A stretch of 64,000 bases of DNA from Pedobacter sp. (GTDB lineage: Bacteria > Bacteroidota > Bacteroidia > Sphingobacteriales > Sphingobacteriaceae), in assembly GCF_031119335.1 (NCBI RefSeq), contig NZ_JAVHXT010000003.1, forward strand, positions 1 to 64,000, written 5' to 3'. Below, in pieces: positions 9,298 to 56,703 of the stretch. A model generated the notes under the pieces. It saw nothing but the letters and a program-made list of their open reading frames with translations. It ran no database searches and was not told the origin of the DNA. Both the position numbers and the translations under genes were made by a program. Position 1 is the stretch's first letter. Every line of letters begins with the position of its first letter.

Positions 9298-9411
9298 GCC
9301 ACAGATGCACAGATTTTGTTTTAGGCTAACTCAAAAAGGTTTAGAATGTTTGTAAAGGCTTTGATGCCAGTTATATCAGTTTTTTGAAAAAGACATCTGT
9401 GCATCTGTGGC
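9298..9411. repeat. inverted repeat, CACAGATGCACAGAT family (copy 1)
   Basis: Perfect 17-bp terminal inverted repeats (GCCACAGATGCACAGAT at 9298-9314 and its complement at 9395-9411) around an 80-bp interior. It fills most of the gap between divergent recQ and the amidohydrolase gene. Copies at 33421 and 44383 share the same arms. Confidence 0.85.
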
Positions 9412-13639: not shown

Positions 13640-15904
13640 CTACAACACCAACAACCCGTACTCCCGTAAAGTATGAATTGGTTTTGAATACCAGAATAAT
13701 TCAAAATGTTCTATTGTATTCTCAAAATCAGCTTTGATTTCTTGAAAGGTTAAGGTTTTATCATTAGAGCAAGAGATTTTATCCAAGATAGCAACCAACC
13801 ACTCGCCTTCAGCTTTATTGGTTTGAATGCTAAAAGTTTCCCGTTTGTTGTGGAAATGCAAATTCATCATTTCCCAAGTGTTGCCTTTTTTAGACTTGGT
13901 AAACCTCTCAACAGTTGGCTTTCCGCCTAACCAAACAATCTTCGCAGTAGATTTAGTTCCATAAAATTCCCCTTCAGGGGTTAGGGGTTTTAAAGCAACA
14001 TCAATAAAATTCGGAGCAATAGTAGTCCTCGGTATTTTAAAATCGAACCAATCTTGTAGCTTATAATCGAAGCAGATGCCATGCATAAAATTGAACAGCG
14101 ACTTCTTTAATCCGTAGCTAAATTTATTATGGTCGATACCAGTTTTATCCCTGTAGTTAATATCGTTATTAGCGAAAGTTCCAATTTCTTCCGTTTCTTT
14201 TACCACGCCAAACTTTTCGGGATACAAACCAACCGGACTGTGCGCTGTCATTGCAAATTGGTGCCAAAAACCAGATTGTAACACCCCAGCCTCAAACAAT
14301 TGACGAACCATTTCCAGACTATCCACCGTTTCTTGTACTGTTTGTGTTGGATAACCATACATCAAATAAGCATGTACCATAATTCCAGCTTCTGTGAAAT
14401 TTCTGGTTACTTTAGCCACTTGTTCTACCGTAACACCTTTATCAATCAGTTTTAATAATCTATCGGAAGCTACTTCTAAACCACCAGAAACTGCAATACA
14501 GCCAGAAGCTTTTAGCAATAAACATAAATCTCTAGTAAAACTTTTTTCGAAACGGATGTTGGTCCACCAAGTAACGGTGATTTTCCTTCTGAGGATTTCC
14601 AGAGCAACTTCACGCATTAAAGCGGGCGGAGCAGCTTCATCTACAAAGTGAAAACCATTCTGACCAGTTTTCGATACCAATTCCTCTATCCTATCTACAA
14701 TCTGTTTGGCTGCTATAGGCTCGTAAACCTTGATATAATCTAAGGAAATATCGCAGAAAGTACACTTGCCCCAATAACAGCCATGCGCCATCGTTAACTT
14801 ATTCCAACGACCATCGCTCCACATTCTATGCATTGGGTTTACAATCTCGATAACCGAAATGTAGCTATCCAATGACAAATCAGAATAATCTGGTGTGCCT
14901 ACATCAGCTTGTTTGTAATCAGTTCTTAAAGCATCATTTCTGTAAGCAACTTCTCCATTTTCTAGTAAAAATGTTCTTTTGTATAAATTGAATTCACCGT
15001 CTTTGATAATGGCATTATACAAAAGTTCTATCGGCAATTCGCCATCATCTAAAGTGATATAATCGAAAAATTCGAAAACTCTTTTATCCGAAAGCGAACG
15101 TAATTCTGTATTTGGGAAACCACCACCCATCGATATTTTAATATGAGGATAGTTTTGCTTCACAAACTGCGCACAACGAAATGCTGCGTATAAATTCCCA
15201 GGAAAAGGAACAGAAATCAGAAATAATTTAGGCTGAATTGCTTCAATTCTTTCTTTAAGGATATTGATTAAAATACCATCAATATAAGTTGGCTGCTGAT
15301 TTAAGGCTCCGTACAATTCATCGAAAGAATTGGCACTTCTTCCCAATCGCTCTGCGTACCTGCTAAAACCAAAATTTGGGTCAATACATTCTACAATAAA
15401 ATCAGAAATATCTTCTAAATAAAGTGTAGCCAAATGCTTTGCCTTATCTTGAGTTCCCATAGCACCAAAAGCCCAATCTAATTCTTCTAATTGTGCAAAT
15501 CGAGAAGCCTCTGGTAAAAAATCTTCCTGACAAATTTGTAGAGCCAAAGTTGGATTTTTGCCTTGCAGGAAAGAAATAACTGCATCAATGGTTTTCAAAT
15601 ATTCTTCTTTTAAAGCTAGAATTCGTTGAATATTAAATGAAAACATTTCGTTTTTTAGCTCCGCCTGATGGAACAAATCTGTTAGTCCTTTTTTGGAAAA
15701 AAGCGCTAAAATTACTTCAATACCTAAGTCGGCTTGGATTGATGAAATGCCTTTTGCATTTAAAAAACCTTTGATATACGCAGTGGCCGGATACGGTGTA
15801 TTCAGTTGTGTAAATGGCGGTGTAATTACAAAAAGTTCGCTTTGCAAAGGAATTTTATTTTTTTTGCAAAAGTACACAAATCTACGTTTAGATATGAAAT
15901 ACAT
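13640..15904 (-). CDS. B12-binding-type radical SAM protein
   Basis: 754 aa. The N-terminal region (about 25-290, SELFVITPPFTQLNTPYPA and KISMGGGFPNTELR) looks like a cobalamin-binding-type domain, followed by a radical SAM core with HGCYWGKCTFCD. The cluster cysteines are C376, C381 and C384, spaced CX4CX2C rather than CX3CX2C. GFHFVDEAAPP and VSGGLEVASDRLLKLIDKGV are typical core strands. The C-terminal part (about 560-754) is specific to this subfamily. The reaction is unknown. Residues about 637-646 (LKPLTPEGEF) are encoded by a CCCCT repeat inside the gene. No methyltransferase or biosynthetic partner is adjacent. Confidence 0.85.
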   Translation of the reverse strand: MYFISKRRFVYFCKKNKIPLQSELFVITPPFTQLNTPYPATAYIKGFLNAKGISSIQADLGIEVILALFSKKGLTDLFHQAELKNEMFSFNIQRILALKEEYLKTIDAVISFLQGKNPTLALQICQEDFLPEASRFAQLEELDWAFGAMGTQDKAKHLATLYLEDISDFIVECIDPNFGFSRYAERLGRSANSFDELYGALNQQPTYIDGILINILKERIEAIQPKLFLISVPFPGNLYAAFRCAQFVKQNYPHIKISMGGGFPNTELRSLSDKRVFEFFDYITLDDGELPIELLYNAIIKDGEFNLYKRTFLLENGEVAYRNDALRTDYKQADVGTPDYSDLSLDSYISVIEIVNPMHRMWSDGRWNKLTMAHGCYWGKCTFCDISLDYIKVYEPIAAKQIVDRIEELVSKTGQNGFHFVDEAAPPALMREVALEILRRKITVTWWTNIRFEKSFTRDLCLLLKASGCIAVSGGLEVASDRLLKLIDKGVTVEQVAKVTRNFTEAGIMVHAYLMYGYPTQTVQETVDSLEMVRQLFEAGVLQSGFWHQFAMTAHSPVGLYPEKFGVVKETEEIGTFANNDINYRDKTGIDHNKFSYGLKKSLFNFMHGICFDYKLQDWFDFKIPRTTIAPNFIDVALKPLTPEGEFYGTKSTAKIVWLGGKPTVERFTKSKKGNTWEMMNLHFHNKRETFSIQTNKAEGEWLVAILDKISCSNDKTLTFQEIKADFENTIEHFELFWYSKPIHTLREYGLLVL
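13966..13991. repeat. CCCCT-type dispersed repeat inside radical SAM gene
   Basis: ATTCCCCTTCAGGGGTTAGG followed by GGTTTT, in frame within the coding region and encoding LKPLTPEGEF on the minus strand. Confidence 0.75.
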
Positions 15905-18540: not shown

Positions 18541-18610
18541 TAACTCCGTCACCGGAAAGGTTTATAAGTTTTCGCTAAGTGACGCTAAGCTATAGCTAGA
18601 CTTTTCTTAA

Positions 18611-18820
18611 ATAGCCCTGATTGCAGTGGTCATACTTTTTGTTGCTCATCTTTTCCAAACTTCGTAAGTTTTTAAACGGCGTAGCCCTCAACTTCACCAT
18701 TGAATACAAATAACTGATAAAAGTTAAACTTACGAAGTTTAAGCTAAGCTAAACCACTCACAAAAAGATGATAACGGAAAGCAGGACTATCGGGAAATAG
18801 CAGCACAAATATTGCGCTTC
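18611..18820. repeat. modular palindromic element A
   Basis: One end reads ATAGCCCTGATTG and the other GCAGGACTATCGGGAAATAG...GCGCTTC. These are diverged forms of the ends seen at 40053-40257, 46275-46460 and 56552-56640 (CAATCGGGTTTA and GAAAAGCAA...CCCGCT). Orientation is opposite to those three. An 85-bp palindromic module (18657-18741) occupies the interior. Confidence 0.7.
18657..18741 (+). repeat. 85-bp palindromic module (copy 1)
   Basis: Terminal inverted repeats AAACTTCGTAAGTTT and AAACTTACGAAGTTT. The interior has TTTAAACGGCGTAGCCCTCA and ACTTCACCATTGAA. The second copy (40132-40216) is also 85 bp, on the opposite strand, with the same internal landmarks. Confidence 0.85.
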
Positions 18821-18869
18821 TAATTGTAATCTAATGTACAATTAACCCAAACCGTATGCTAATTTTTGC

Positions 18870-22020: not shown

Positions 22021-22048
22021 GTTGTCAGACTGAGCTTGTCGAAGACTA
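22021..22048. repeat. GTTGTCAG-AGCTTGTCGAAG repeat (copy 1)
   Basis: GTTGTCAGACTGAGCTTGTC followed by GAAGACTA. Nearly identical to the complement of 23666-23693. The rest of the gap 21994-22265 shows nothing I can assign. Confidence 0.75.
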
Positions 22049-23665: not shown

Positions 23666-23693
23666 TAGTCTTCGACAAGCTCAGACTGACAAC
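23666..23693. repeat. GTTGTCAG-AGCTTGTCGAAG repeat (copy 2)
   Basis: TAGTCTTCGACAAGCTCAGA then CTGACAAC, the reverse complement of the copy at 22021. Confidence 0.75.
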
Positions 23694-28979: not shown

Positions 28980-29924
28980 ATGAGAGTTAATCAATTTTTC
29001 ACCAGTACGCTTGCAGCAGCTTCTTTATTGGTTGCTTCATGCTCTACACAAAAGATGGCACAGAATAATAGTGCCGACGATGTGTACAACACTACAGCGC
29101 AAGCCAGGGTTTATAAATATGCCCCGCCTGTGCAAACTGCTCAGATAGATACTTCCCGTTACGATCCCAATTATAAAAATAGTAATCCTGAATACGATAT
29201 GGATTACGCTTCTAGGATCGACAGGTTCTATTATGGCAGTCCGAATAGAGTTTATTTTGATGACTATTATAATTTCTACGGTTACAATTCTTGGTATAAT
29301 CCTTACGATTGGTCTTTAGGTTTCCACTATGGCTGGGGGTTTAACCGTTGGATGAATCCCTTTAATTCTTGGGCATATTATGGTAGTCCATATTATTGGA
29401 ACACTTGGGGACCTTATTCTTACTGGGGCGGTGGCTTCGGTTGGGGTGGAGGCTTTGGCTGGGGCGGTGGTCTCGGTTGGGGCGGCGGTTACTGGGGAGG
29501 TGGCGGCTGGGGAGGCGGCGCAATTGTTAGAAATGACAATTATAGAGCTAGACCAAACCGCGGTGCTGAAAACGGTATAGGCGTTAGACCTAATGGGTCC
29601 GTAATAGACAGAGGTGCTAGAACTGGGGGTAATACAGGTGTGATTGGACGTACAGGTTCGAGACCTGAAGCTTACAATCCTACTACAACTACTAACGGTA
29701 CCTCATCTAGAGGTAGTAGTACTACACGTGATTCAAGACCAAGCAGGGCGGGTTCGAATAATGGAGATTCGAGACCAACTCGTACTACAGAAAGTTCAAG
29801 ACCATCTTATTCACCACCCCCACAATCGTCATCTAGTGGTAGTAGCGGTAGAACAGGCGGTAGTTCTGGAGGAGGAAGTAGCTCTTCTGGCGGAGGTAGA
29901 CCAACTAGAGGCGGAGGTAGATAA
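28980..29924 (+). CDS. Gly/Trp/Tyr-rich lipoprotein, unknown function
   Basis: 314 aa. Signal peptide with lipobox LLVASC (Cys at about 21), so probably a lipoprotein. Then a Tyr/Asn-rich region with many aromatic residues (YYNFYGYNSWYNPYDWSLGF), a Gly/Trp low-complexity block (about 148-182, repeated GGGFGW) and a Ser/Arg/Gly-rich tail. No enzyme domain is visible. The composition suggests an extended surface protein. It lies 25 bp upstream of the FadL-like gene on the same strand, probably in an operon. Other-frame readings through the repeat block are artefacts of low complexity. Confidence 0.75.
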   Translation: MRVNQFFTSTLAAASLLVASCSTQKMAQNNSADDVYNTTAQARVYKYAPPVQTAQIDTSRYDPNYKNSNPEYDMDYASRIDRFYYGSPNRVYFDDYYNFYGYNSWYNPYDWSLGFHYGWGFNRWMNPFNSWAYYGSPYYWNTWGPYSYWGGGFGWGGGFGWGGGLGWGGGYWGGGGWGGGAIVRNDNYRARPNRGAENGIGVRPNGSVIDRGARTGGNTGVIGRTGSRPEAYNPTTTTNGTSSRGSSTTRDSRPSRAGSNNGDSRPTRTTESSRPSYSPPPQSSSSGSSGRTGGSSGGGSSSSGGGRPTRGGGR

Positions 29925-33380: not shown

Positions 33381-33420
33381 GAAGAATGCGATGATTTGAG
33401 AATGACGTAAATCATAAAAA

Positions 33421-33468
33421 AGCCACAGATGCACAGATTATTTCTCAATAATTTGTGCATCTGCGGCT
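33421..33468. repeat. inverted repeat, CACAGATGCACAGAT family (copy 2)
   Basis: Arms AGCCACAGATGCACAGATTA and TAATTTGTGCATCTGCGGCT (two mismatches) with a short loop. Same arms as 9298-9411 and 44383-44447. Confidence 0.8.
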
Positions 33469-39204: not shown

Positions 39205-40041
39205 ATGACAACTACTTCAGATATTACAACACAATTAAAAAACATCAAGCATTTTGCACTCGATATGGATGGTACCATCTATAACGGCAGCACCTTATTT
39301 CCGTTTACCAATAGCTTTTTAAACTACCTAAAAGCTAACGGCATCGGTTATTCATTTTTAACCAATAACCCGTCTAAGAGCACAGCAGATTACCTCAAGC
39401 ATTTAGAAAAAATGGGTATTCCGGCTACAAAGGAAGAGATGTATACTTCGGCCGTAGCAACTATCAACTATATCAAAAACCATCATCCAGCTATCAAAAA
39501 ACTATTCATATTGGGCACTCCAAGTATGGTTAAAGAGTTTGAAGAGGCTGGTTTCATCTCTACGGCAGATAGCGCTGATGATAAACCAAATGCTTTGGTA
39601 GTAGGTTTCGATACGTCGTTAATTTATTCAAGACTTTGCCGAGCCGCCTATTGGGCTAGTCAGCAATTACCTTATTTTGCTACCAATCCAGATTGGGTTT
39701 GCCCTACAGACCAGCCGAACATTTTGGTAGATTGTGGTTCAATTTGCGCCTGCATTGAGGGTGCCACCAAAAGAAATCCAGATATTGTGATCGGCAAACC
39801 AGACCCAGGTATGCTAGATGGAATTATTCAAAAATACAATCTGCAGCCCAACGAAATTGCCATGGTTGGAGATAGGATTTATACCGATGTGCAAATGGCA
39901 AAAAATGCTGGTGCATTGGGTATTTTGGTTTTATCGGGCGAAGCTACAGCCAAAGATGTGCAACAAGCCACTACGAAGCCTGATATCGTAGCTAAAGATT
40001 TGGCAGAAATTCAAGAGTTATTAGAGCATGGCAAAGGCTAG
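39205..40041 (+). CDS. HAD-IIA (NagD/AraL-like) phosphatase
   Basis: 278 aa. The four HAD motifs are visible: FALDMDGTIYNG (nucleophile D20, acid/base D22), FLTNNPSKS, GKPDPGML and GDRIYTDVQMA. The C2-cap organisation is that of NagD, AraL and phosphoglycolate phosphatases. Starts 8 bp after the transporter gene, clearly the same operon. In B. subtilis the HAD-IIA protein AraL is encoded next to AraM, the same partnership as here. A likely substrate is glycerol phosphate or DHAP, but this family is promiscuous. Confidence 0.9.
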   Translation: MTTTSDITTQLKNIKHFALDMDGTIYNGSTLFPFTNSFLNYLKANGIGYSFLTNNPSKSTADYLKHLEKMGIPATKEEMYTSAVATINYIKNHHPAIKKLFILGTPSMVKEFEEAGFISTADSADDKPNALVVGFDTSLIYSRLCRAAYWASQQLPYFATNPDWVCPTDQPNILVDCGSICACIEGATKRNPDIVIGKPDPGMLDGIIQKYNLQPNEIAMVGDRIYTDVQMAKNAGALGILVLSGEATAKDVQQATTKPDIVAKDLAEIQELLEHGKG

Positions 40042-40052
40042 TTCCATTTTTA

Positions 40053-40257
40053 GAAAAGCAAATTCAGGATTACTATTCTCGTAAGTCCCGCTTTTCTTTC
40101 CAAGTTTTTTGTGAATGCTAATGATATTCTAAGACTTCGTAAGTTTAACTTTTCAGCTATCATTATTTTTCAATGGTAAAGTTGAGAGCTACGCCGTTTA
40201 AAAACTTACGAAGTCTAGATATTGCTCCAAAAAAGTTTTCCAATTCAATCGGGTTTA
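40053..40257. repeat. modular palindromic element B
   Basis: Left end GAAAAGCAA, then about 30 bp, then GTCCCGCTTTTCTTTCC; right end CAATCGGGTTTA. The interior holds the 85-bp module 40132-40216. Same outer ends as 46275-46460 and 56552-56640. Confidence 0.8.
40132..40216 (-). repeat. 85-bp palindromic module (copy 2)
   Basis: AGACTTCGTAAGTTT ... AAACTTACGAAGTCT; on the minus strand it carries TTTAAACGGCGTAGCTCTCA and TTTACCATTGAA, matching 18657-18741. Confidence 0.85.
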
Positions 40258-40358
40258 GACAACCAAAAACCTGTTCAAAGGTCTAGATTATTTCATAATT
40301 TCCGCACTCTTGAACAGAAAAACACCAAAGCTACAAGGGTACAAGAAAGAGTTGCCAT

Positions 40359-44362: not shown

Positions 44363-44382
44363 GCTTTAAATATAGTTAGTTA

Positions 44383-44447
44383 GCCACAGATGCACAGATA
44401 TTATTTCATCATTATATATTACAAAGTAATATCTGTGCATCTGTGGC
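44383..44447. repeat. inverted repeat, CACAGATGCACAGAT family (copy 3)
   Basis: Perfect 21-bp arms (GCCACAGATGCACAGATATT plus A, and complement) around a 23-bp AT-rich loop. Confidence 0.85.
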
Positions 44448-44460
44448 ATAATAAAAAGTA

Positions 44461-46187: not shown

Positions 46188-46274
46188 TTATTAATACAAT
46201 TAAATTCAAATGGTAACCCAATAATAATCAAAAAAAATAACCGACTTAAATTTTCAGTCCGAAATCTATATTTT

Positions 46275-46460
46275 GAAAAGCAAATGTACTACTACTTATT
46301 TTGTGTAGCCCCGCTTTCCGCTTAATCTTTTTGTTTGGCTTACCCGTCATTCCAAGTAAATAGTAAGCTATTTTTATCTACTATAACTAACAGATCCTTC
46401 ACTAGCGTTCAGGATGACAGCACGTAAAAAACAAAAAGTATTACACGTCAATCGGGTTTA
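46275..46460. repeat. modular palindromic element C
   Basis: Left end GAAAAGCAA ... TAGCCCCGCTTTCCG; right end CAATCGGGTTTA. Instead of the 85-bp module the interior (about 46345-46419) is a different palindrome with ends CGTCATTCC and GGATGAC. It occupies most of the gap 46188-46616. Confidence 0.8.
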
Positions 46461-46575
46461 TGATACAAAAGCCTATACAAAACACTTAATTTAATACCCA
46501 AAGCGCAAATAAGTAACCTAAAATGCCGCCATAAAAAATATTTTATTTTTTTTCTAAAACATTAGGTTACCTTTT

Positions 46576-46583: not shown

Positions 46584-46616
46584 CGGCATTAAGAGTAAAA
46601 TTAATAATTTAAAAAC

Positions 46617-46817
46617 ATGAAAAACTTATTCAAATTCGGCTTCTTAGCTTTAGCTTTATCTTTAACTGTAGTTGCTTGTTCATCAGAAAAAGCTGCTGAA
46701 GGTACTGATACAACTGCTGTTGATACTACTGTAGTAGATACTACTGTTGTTGACACTACTGTAGCTGTTGATACTACTGGTGCTGCTGCTCCAGCTGCTG
46801 CAACTCCTGCTAACTAG
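46617..46817 (+). CDS. small lipoprotein 1 with VDTT repeats
   Basis: 66 aa. Signal peptide with lipobox VVAC (Cys at position 21), then SSEKAAEGTDTTA, then tandem VDTTV units (about 35-53), ending in an Ala/Pro/Thr tail. No fold is predicted beyond an acidic, Thr-rich disordered chain. The first 23 residues are identical to those of the gene at 47013. Each gene has its own terminator, so the two are independent transcripts. The function is unknown. Confidence 0.8.
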   Translation: MKNLFKFGFLALALSLTVVACSSEKAAEGTDTTAVDTTVVDTTVVDTTVAVDTTGAAAPAAATPAN

Positions 46818-46870: not shown

Positions 46871-47012
46871 TTTAAAAAAACAAAAATTACATACTAACAA
46901 TCAACAACTTACATTATAATATAAAAATAATTTATATTTTTTGGGTTACCTTTTTAAGATACCGGCATTAAGTTGTAATTAATTAATTAAAAAAGTTTAA
47001 ACGAAAATTAAA

Positions 47013-47207
47013 ATGAAAAACTTATTCAAATTTGGCTTCTTAGCATTAGCTTTATCTTTAACTGTAGTTGCTTGTTCTTCTGAGAACAAAGGCGAAGGTA
47101 CTGACACTGTAGGTTCTGATACTACTATCACTGCTGATACTACTGTAACTGATACAGTTGTTACTACTGATACTACTGTTGTTGATACAACTAAAGCTGC
47201 TCACTAG
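47013..47207 (+). CDS. small lipoprotein 2 with DTT repeats
   Basis: 64 aa paralogue of the gene at 46617: same signal peptide and lipobox (Cys 21), then SSENKGEGTDTVGSD, then DTT units with varied spacing (SDTTITADTTVTDTVV), ending TKAAH. The codons of the repeats are also alike (gatactact), so replication slippage may alter the unit number. Upstream sequence shares GGTTACCTTTTTA and CGGCATTAAG with the first copy, indicating duplication of the whole unit. Confidence 0.8.
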   Translation: MKNLFKFGFLALALSLTVVACSSENKGEGTDTVGSDTTITADTTVTDTVVTTDTTVVDTTKAAH

Positions 47208-56524: not shown

Positions 56525-56551
56525 TTTTTGGTTGTGTCTTTTTTATAATTT

Positions 56552-56640
56552 GAAAAGCAAGGTTCATTGCTCTTCAGTTTCATTAGTCCCGCTATTCGTT
56601 TCTCCCGATGAAAAATCGGGATTCATTTCAATCGGGTTTA
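56552..56640. repeat. modular palindromic element D (minimal form)
   Basis: Left end GAAAAGCAA ... TAGTCCCGCTATTCG, right end CAATCGGGTTTA. The interior is only the hairpin TCCCGATGAAAAATCGGGA. Lies within the cysH-cysD gap. Confidence 0.8.
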
Positions 56641-56655
56641 GTTTTTGTGGGTTTG

Positions 56656-56703
56656 CAACCCCTCTCTGCCTGTCGGCATCTCTCCCCTAAAAGGGAGAGA
56701 AAA
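56656..56703. repeat. CTCTCTGCC-family palindromic element (copy 2)
   Basis: ACCCCTCTCTGCCTGTCGGC ... TCTCTCCC-CTAAAA-GGGAGAGA. Shares its outer ends with 18352-18443 but lacks the ATTGAT-ended insert. Confidence 0.6.

Follow-up and report, generated by a model that had tools for sequence, protein, structure and literature searches.

Which kind of genetic unit keeps its two ends while the middle differs from copy to copy? This question is raised by four intergenic elements, designated here A to D, in a 64,000-nucleotide stretch of a Pedobacter sp. genome (RefSeq assembly GCF_031119335.1, contig NZ_JAVHXT010000003.1, positions 1 to 64,000; this whole stretch is henceforth the window, and the source genome is 4.36 Mb). 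An earlier note, made from the DNA letters alone, had proposed either a hot spot for palindrome insertion or a non-coding unit that exchanges its centre. The four elements are copies of Flavo-1, an already known bacterial repeat. Beyond what the Rfam entry of this family describes, we observed that the foot of the hairpin is complementary to its 3' end, in several matching specificities, and that the loop is a landing pad for other palindromes, which have been exchanged in place. Flavo-1 copies are probably non-autonomous single-stranded-DNA hairpin elements that resemble the ends of IS200/IS605 and carry exchangeable loop cargo, and no ordinary small RNA.

Elements A to D are copies of Flavo-1

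The Rfam model of Flavo-1 (RF01705) matched all four elements over model positions 1-76, namely A at 18609-18792 on the plus strand (44.8 bits, E = 2.2e-6), and B, C and D on the minus strand at 40260-40080 (41.6 bits, E = 1.7e-5), 46463-46303 (35.4 bits, E = 8.4e-4) and 56643-56581 (32.9 bits, E = 4.1e-3), respectively. A alone exceeds the gathering score of the family (42 bits); B, C and D score lower, yet are aligned over the same positions. We also built an extended model, R1, from 40 training rows, D among them and A, B and C not. R1 found exactly four elements in the window, with E values of 4e-11 to 3e-9 for A, B and C and of 1.3 for the next match. The copies are thus present where the earlier note had placed them, their interiors differ as it had described, and all lie between genes, including one, D, inside the sulfur operon between cysD and cysH; the modelled flank of B reaches the last four bases of the preceding gene. 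The end letters that the note had given as shared are found in B, C and D, where CAATCGGGTTTA occurs exactly at 40246, 46449 and 56629. They are not found in A, of which both ends are changed in a compensating way (GAAGCGCAA / CAATCAGGGCTA in place of the CAATCGGGTTTA-type letters). CAATCGGGTTTA corresponds to the 5' foot and stem of the element, and a backward reading of its 3' end gives GAAAAGCAA. The genome contains 31 occurrences of CAATCGGGTTTA, vs. 2 of a reversed control.

The earlier note had regarded the unit as undescribed. In fact, Flavo-1 was published by Weinberg et al. (2010) as a motif of Bacteroidota, probably an RNA, whose function was unexplained, according to the available portion of that paper (PMC2864571). 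Rfam, in whose model the interior is treated as a variable insertion, classifies the family as sRNA. In the excerpt available of a review, Flavo-1 is counted as one of the small-RNA families that are most abundant in genome annotations (PMC9029176). The partial text of a paper on F. psychrophilum reports that several 5' transcribed regions coincide with Flavo-1 matches, that the matches seem to be indistinctly sense or antisense, that many lie outside transcribed regions, and that no functional clue was obtained. The unit in the window shares the hairpin core and the phylum with the Rfam motif, which A to D match at full length, and differs from it in that it continues beyond the end of that model and includes a 3' site complementary to the 5' foot. 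In the open-licence literature searched, as far as its texts were available, we found neither a treatment of Flavo-1 as a mobile element nor a report of natural co-switching of guide and site or of traced interior exchange in Flavo-1.

The foot of the hairpin covaries with the 3' end

In element sense, the 5' part of the unit reads GTTnnn-TAxx-CCnGATTG.AGYGG and is followed by the interior; the 3' part comprises ARCGNAAAGCnGG-ACT, a spacer of ~24 nt, TTGCyyTTC and an A-rich flank. The structure line of the Rfam entry leaves the outer eight positions on each side unpaired. Nevertheless, xx of the foot was complementary to yy of the 3' site in 28 of 30 copies, which were the best Rfam matches in the source genome, picked by Rfam score alone (the site of one copy, L038, was misplaced by the site finder and is scored as a miss). 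Shuffled pairs of guide and site matched in 11.94 copies on average and in 22 at most, and none of 100000 shuffles reached 28. The ends, whose covariation the earlier note had suggested examining, do covary, through a feature that was not visible to it.

The conserved bulged stem covaries as well: among 40 aligned copies, 97.3% of the cells of the proposed structure are paired, vs. 82.0% after shuffling and 33-58% when it was slid, and 66 cells have changes on both sides. The two variable guide pairs are AU in 27, GC in 12 and other in 1 of these copies, and AU in 29, CG in 8 and other in 3, respectively, and the three guide pairs together are of Watson-Crick types except for 5 non-pairing cells of 120. 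Many of the 40 rows were retrieved by the pattern CAATCGGGTTTA, which fixes xx and leaves yy free. We also tallied the 101 copies contained in the fetched loci of the source genome, of which 88 were scorable; their matching specificities are AA/TT (56 copies), GC/GC (13), GA/TC (7) and CA/TG (1). G.T wobble occurs in 0 of 176 guide cells and in 17 of 984 cells overall (with 67 mismatches), and this near-absence, albeit indirect evidence, fits DNA better than RNA. Foot tetranucleotides are TAGC, TAAA and TAGA, rarely TACA, CAAA and others. When four sequences (A in part) were folded as single-stranded DNA, the z values were -3.55, -0.95, -3.41 and -2.27, and the minimum-energy folds lacked the full conserved stem.

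The arrangement is found outside the source genome as well. All 15 Rfam-chosen copies of a genome from another family (G056) have the TAGC foot, and on visual inspection the 3' site of each reads GC after a spacer of only ~5 nt; the site continues as TCC or TTC in 13 copies, as TCT in L352 and as TAT in L360. Nearly all copies examined in Flavobacteriaceae belong to the GC class, which therefore provides no covariation there. A second subfamily, of which nine elements were found by a regular expression, has a five-base guide ahead of AGGGAT. The reverse complement of the five bases adjoining AGGGAT is present in eight of the nine (L395 fails in this register), and is followed in these matched copies by CC and then by AA (six copies), TAA (L070) or GAAAA (L391). 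Four specificities are represented by these guides (GCATG, GCGTT, GCGTG and CCATG). If any of five registers is allowed, all nine match, vs. a mean of 4.13 and a maximum of 8 in shuffles (0 of 2000 reaching nine).

Foreign palindromes in the hairpin tip

By a pattern tally, the interiors of the 101 copies include 48 of at most 50 nt and 13 longer ones in which no guest was recognised. A CGTC/TGTC-tagged palindrome is carried by 26 copies and the ACTTCGTAAGT palindrome of A and B by 10; rarer guests are a AAACCTYATAGGTTT palindrome (3 copies) and a GCAATGACG type (1 copy). Interiors with foreign palindromes reach 185 nt. The ACTTCGTAAGTTT motif gave 36 matches (control 0) at 21 places in the source genome, 10 of which are within Flavo-1 matches and 2 adjoin one. 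GTTCGAAATGACG gave 67 matches (control 1) at ~53 places; among the 23 of them that lie in the fetched loci, first in contig order, 9 are within strong Flavo-1 matches and 3 in or across weak ones. Under a null of 5%, assumed from ~4% of the window's non-ORF DNA (ORF, open reading frame), the in-loop enrichment has P values of 2e-8 for ACTTCGTAAGTTT and 8e-7 for GTTCGAAATGACG. These counts bear out the hot spot for palindrome insertion that the earlier note had envisaged.

The guests can in part be related to known repeats, i.e., repetitive extragenic palindromes (REPs) and the REP-associated tyrosine transposases (RAYTs) of the Y1 type. Palindromes like ACTTCGTAAGT, searched as a loose motif, flank 8 of 9 Y1 genes of the HIYNRG type vs. 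4 of 54 other Y1 genes, after reassignment of L131, whose protein contains CHIYNRG (the tally of the script itself was 7/8 and 5/55). The cargo of A and B is therefore probably the REP of that RAYT. The L129 protein matched the REP-transposase model NF047646 below threshold (55.3 of 80 bits), and no Y1 of the HIYNRG type was found among the seven translated of the eight Y1 matches of the source genome. CGTC repeats have been reported to lack a dedicated transposase, according to the part of the report available (PMC3733652). In the window, an inverted pair of 28-nt sequences, GTTGTCAGACTGAGCTTGTCGAAGACTA (22021-22048 / 23666-23693, 96% complementary), resembles the TGTC-type REP cargo and lies outside Flavo-1.

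Interiors replaced in place at orthologous sites

At site B, the element, its flanks and its spacer are common to the window, P. nanyangensis (L211), Pedobacter sp. ASV17 (L212) and P. chitinilyticus (L215); the element was absent from seven other loci compared. The interior is the 85-bp module in the window, a TGTCATCCTGAGC-type REP in P. nanyangensis, the same REP type enclosing a further CCCGA hairpin in ASV17, and a plain CCCGAT hairpin in P. chitinilyticus. A comparison of the latter two shows that the REP occupies the apex of the CCCGAT hairpin. The element at site C is common to the window, P. xixiisoli (L216) and Nubsella (L221), and the cargo is similar in kind to the window's in Nubsella, to which it is related, and another REP in P. 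xixiisoli; a further locus, L213, has a degraded copy, on both sides of which the DNA still aligns.

Site D was followed through the cysD-cysH gap, read in the 30 best-matching loci of 145 genomes of the genus. The extended model matched 11 of these loci, always inside the gap, and not the other 19. The carriers, 11 species, form one group of the midpoint-rooted tree (support 100/97), within which four interiors occur: the CCCGAT hairpin of the window, a TGTC-type REP (L426-L430 and L435), a GTCATTGC-type REP in L433, whose sister is L427 (support 100/99), and a third hairpin (L431, L432 and L434).

The spacers are 0.77-0.92 identical at B and C; at D, their identity has a mean of 0.75 and a minimum of 0.62 (36 pairs from nine parsed copies; L432 and L434 were dropped by the parser, and both are confirmed as carriers by the model). 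Random pairs of spacers (n = 4560) have a mean of 0.49, a 99th percentile of 0.71 and a maximum of 0.91. Interior identity, in turn, ranges from 0.15 to 0.55 at B, from 0.59 to 0.76 at C and from 0.33 to 0.97 at D, most copies of which have one REP in common; interiors of unrelated copies have a mean identity of 0.39. As the spacers are alike while the interiors differ at one and the same site, the outer element has been inherited and its middle replaced. This exchange at B, C and D agrees with the second proposal of the earlier note, a unit that exchanges its centre. We found neither of the two patterns that it had named as contrary to its reading, i.e., ends that are not linked at other loci or interiors that are all homologous. 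Orthologous copies persist between species of roughly 75-91% coding identity. The 3' end adjoins the A-rich flank, and by eye there is a terminator-like T-run at site B; at site D, also by eye, some non-carriers resemble carriers up to the A-rich flank beside TTC, and their 5' side is unalignable.

Copy number and genomic context

In each of nine Pedobacter relatives, 144-150 of 150 scored candidates matched the extended model. Since only 150 were scored, the true counts are probably higher. Twenty evenly spaced 20-kb stretches of another genome, G064 (400 kb), contain 29 copies, of which a single stretch accounts for 13. With the Rfam model, matches at E <= 0.01 were obtained in 21 of 36 genomes of the genus, and zero in the remaining 15; across the phylum, 43 of 296 genomes have at least one match at E <= 1e-4. 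None of 33 copies (the 29 in G064 and the four in the window, with 20 nt trimmed per side) overlaps an ORF of at least 100 codons, though such ORFs cover 81% of that DNA, and 18 of the 33 lie between convergent genes, though clustered.

All four copies in the window, and many others, are single rather than paired. Six divergent head-to-head pairs overlap by exactly 14 nt, with the centre CTGTGCACAG in L007, L056 and L315 and a variant in L018, L048 and L290, which suggests a double form like the REPIN, a pair of REPs. Two regions of G064 (L252:1980-3300 and 14460-15640) are arrays in which copies of the AA/TT and GC/GC classes alternate in opposite orientation, apparently by local duplication. 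The flanks of the best Flavo-1 copies are very similar in L368, L369 and L373, from three f26/g30 genomes; because this similarity extends across three species, some copies look old and vertically inherited.

Candidate enzymes

We sampled ~6 kb around each of 60 Y1 places, mostly weak matches, and 30 further ones (90 loci, 461 kb). Flavo-1 was rejected as the cognate REP of RAYT genes, as it occurs at Y1 loci at no more than its general density. A Flavo-1-like hairpin near the Y1 gene of L089, the sole Flavo-1 find in an Rfam scan of 20 strong Y1 loci, was likewise rejected as a cognate pair, since that Y1 gene is flanked by other palindromes. Y1 matches co-occur with Flavo-1 in the genus (21 of 21 Flavo-1 genomes vs. 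2 of 15 without it); this association is confounded by kinship and contradicted by the six genomes described in the Discussion that lack PF01797 (Y1). The flanks of 20 Y1 genes (L101-L152) contain palindromes of kinds other than Flavo-1, and the RAYT types of Pedobacter differ in them (e.g., GTTGGCGAGGACGCCAAC, GATTACAAATCCGGACC and CCTCGTTACAAACGAGGACGAT) and apparently form a rich repertoire of RAYT/REP pairs.

Features of the window

Coordinates of the four Flavo-1 units and their parts in the window, with adjacent genes. R1, extended model; xx and yy, variable bases of foot and 3' site.
Feature	Position	Strand	Score or basis	Neighbouring genes
Element A, whole extended unit, GC/GC class	18588..18835	+	R1 70.1 bits	HI0933-like FAD protein gene; purK
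A, foot tetranucleotide TAGC, guide-like, xx = GC	18612..18615	+	sequence; family covariation	
A, loop cargo, 85-bp palindrome ACTTCGTAAGTTT..AAACTTACGAAGT	18657..18740	.		
A, 3' terminal site TTGCGCTTC, yy = GC at 18816-18817	18812..18820	+		
Element B, whole extended unit, AA/TT class	40038..40282	-	R1 60.3 bits	HAD-IIA hydrolase gene; OmpA-family gene
B, 3' terminal site TTGCTTTTC (GAAAAGCAA on +)	40053..40061	-		
B, loop cargo, 85-bp ACTTCGTAAGTTT palindrome	40133..40215	.		
B, foot tetranucleotide TAAA, xx = AA	40254..40257	-		
Element C, whole extended unit, AA/TT class	46260..46484	-	R1 65.2 bits	ECF sigma factor gene; purB
C, 3' terminal site TTGCTTTTC	46275..46283	-		
C, loop cargo, CGTCATTCC..GGATGACAG palindrome, CGTC/TGTC-tagged REP type	46345..46420	.		
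C, foot tetranucleotide TAAA	46457..46460	-		
Element D, whole extended unit, AA/TT class	56537..56664	-	R1 87.7 bits (training row)	cysD; cysH
D, 3' terminal site TTGCTTTTC	56552..56560	-		
D, simple hairpin interior, CTCCCGATGAAAAATCGGGAT on +, ATCCCGATTTTTCATCGGGAG in element sense	56602..56622	.		
D, foot tetranucleotide TAAA	56637..56640	-		

Other repeats were noticed in the window. A 183-nt direct repeat, 72% alike, lies between element C and purB (46614-46796 and 47010-47192). The GCCACAGATGCACAGAT motif has direct and inverted copies at 9298-9322, 33419-33445 and 44376-44454, the last being an inverted pair with 31-nt arms that are 87% complementary. A tandem repeat of the GGGGCGGTGG type, with five 30-nt copies at a spacing of 15-18 nt, is found within an ORF (29423-29521). 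The strong hairpin followed by a T-run at 49396-49447 matches Thr_leader with 36.1 bits, below the gathering score of 55, and is probably a plain terminator.

Discussion

Flavo-1 has the layout of the ends of IS200/IS605 elements. In these, the cleavage site is picked by complementarity to guide bases immediately 5' of the hairpin, and an altered guide retargets the element, according to the sections available (PMC6006769, PMC8266576). The imperfect hairpin, the guide 5' of its foot and the complementary site of cleavage type on the 3' side are shared with IS608 and ISDra2; unlike them, Flavo-1 has no transposase gene inside or regularly beside it and is mostly one hairpin. With canonical REPs and REPINs with RAYT (TnpA-REP), it shares high-copy intergenic palindromes and, in some copies, the head-to-head pairing described above, but its foot is a variable TAxx in contrast to the GT[AG]G of REPs, its hairpin is larger and no RAYT is linked to it. 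The CGTC-tagged REPs are alike in sequence to much of the cargo (CGTCAT..ATGACG, TGTCAT..ATGACA); they are, however, the guests, and Flavo-1 is the host palindrome. REPs or REP dimers nested in longer palindromes have been described in A. variabilis, T. roseum and H. neapolitanus (PMC3733652), in the available text with one host and one guest each, whereas Flavo-1 takes several guest families and its exchange was traced between species.

How could such a unit spread? A HUH nuclease of the Y1 type may bind the folded single strand and have spread the repeats, and the guide at the foot would let this nuclease choose the cleavage site. Exposed hairpin loops may be where other REPs insert, which would make the tip a target. 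The middle could be swapped by template switching or gene conversion, which arms shared by many copies would allow.

Other explanations have to be weighed against a mobile DNA hairpin. If Flavo-1 were a structured RNA, either a small RNA or a cis-acting leader, xx/yy would be its closing helix and the interior swaps neutral changes of the terminal loop. The sRNA type in Rfam, the words "probably an RNA" in the available text of Weinberg et al. (PMC2864571), the helix covariation, which is as in an RNA, and the transcribed regions of F. psychrophilum, in what is available of that report, all speak for this; the indistinct orientation of the matches and the many outside transcribed regions in the same text speak against it, as do the scarcity of G.U wobble (0/176 and 17/984), the copy number of well over 100 per genome, the lack of Rfam matches in 15 of the 36 genus genomes, and interiors of up to 185 nt that hold foreign palindromes. 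We regard a structured RNA as unlikely. The repeats may instead be retained as host sites, such as terminators, stabilisers of mRNA 3' ends or binding sites of the nucleoid or of gyrase, in the manner of bacterial interspersed mosaic elements (BIMEs), their mobility being ancient and now irrelevant. This agrees with 33 of 33 sampled copies being intergenic (18 between convergent genes, though clustered), with persistence at orthologous sites, with the A-rich flank and the T-run at site B, and with the genomes that bear Flavo-1 and lack Y1, but the orthologue of site C in L213 is degraded while its flanking DNA still aligns, and we judge this explanation to be rather improbable.

Two further explanations concern the pattern of ends and interiors itself. 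That different Flavo-1 copies were inserted independently at one spot, with no exchange, would account for interiors that differ about as much as those of unrelated copies (random mean 0.39). It accounts poorly for a copy-specific spacer shared at 0.77-0.92 (B and C) or a mean of 0.75 (D) vs. a random 0.49, and for the single tree group of the 11 site-D carriers (100/97), and is thus very improbable. A chance assembly of unrelated palindromes has in its favour that the short end motifs are weak alone, CCCGCT being no commoner than in shuffles; the independent Rfam matches on A to D, the 31 vs. 2 genome matches and the 101 copies have already refuted it.

Several observations nevertheless weigh against the mobile hairpin that we prefer. 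A cognate enzyme was found neither in the PF01797 survey nor in the scan of Y1 loci: six Flavo-1-bearing genomes (G217, G163, G297, G110, G044 and G050) have no PF01797 match, so that the enzyme was either lost there or is of another kind, and the extended model is not enriched beside Y1, with 14 good matches in 11 of the 90 loci, below the 29 per 400 kb of G064. The copies at conserved orthologous sites could be explained by a host function as well, and no empty site marks the 5' boundary of the element. In the source genome, 11 of the 88 scorable copies are non-complementary, and as the copies within one genome are related, the guide switches among them may not all be independent. Finally, the top-scoring matches have no clear orientation bias relative to the replication fork (64:44, p = 0.067, with the origin assumed at base 1).

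What the analysis provides is the confirmation of a known, unexplained motif and a testable mechanism for it; the nesting of REPs itself has a precedent. It is attractive to go further and to speculate that Flavo-1 is a large family of DNA hairpins with naturally reprogrammed guide/target pairs, the tip of which is an evolving docking site for several independent REP families, nested and swapped in place, i.e., a modular system of Bacteroidota mobilised by some single-strand nuclease. For this wider claim, we would put the chances at slightly below even. If Flavo-1 is genuinely a mobile DNA hairpin, counts of it as a small RNA and searches for its RNA targets would be misdirected. The relation between guide and site is known in IS608 from guide changes made in the laboratory, according to the available part of that work (PMC8266576); Flavo-1 would offer a natural record of the co-evolution of guide and site over several specificities, and a clear case of palindromes nested in palindromes, whose in-place exchange can be followed on the species tree.
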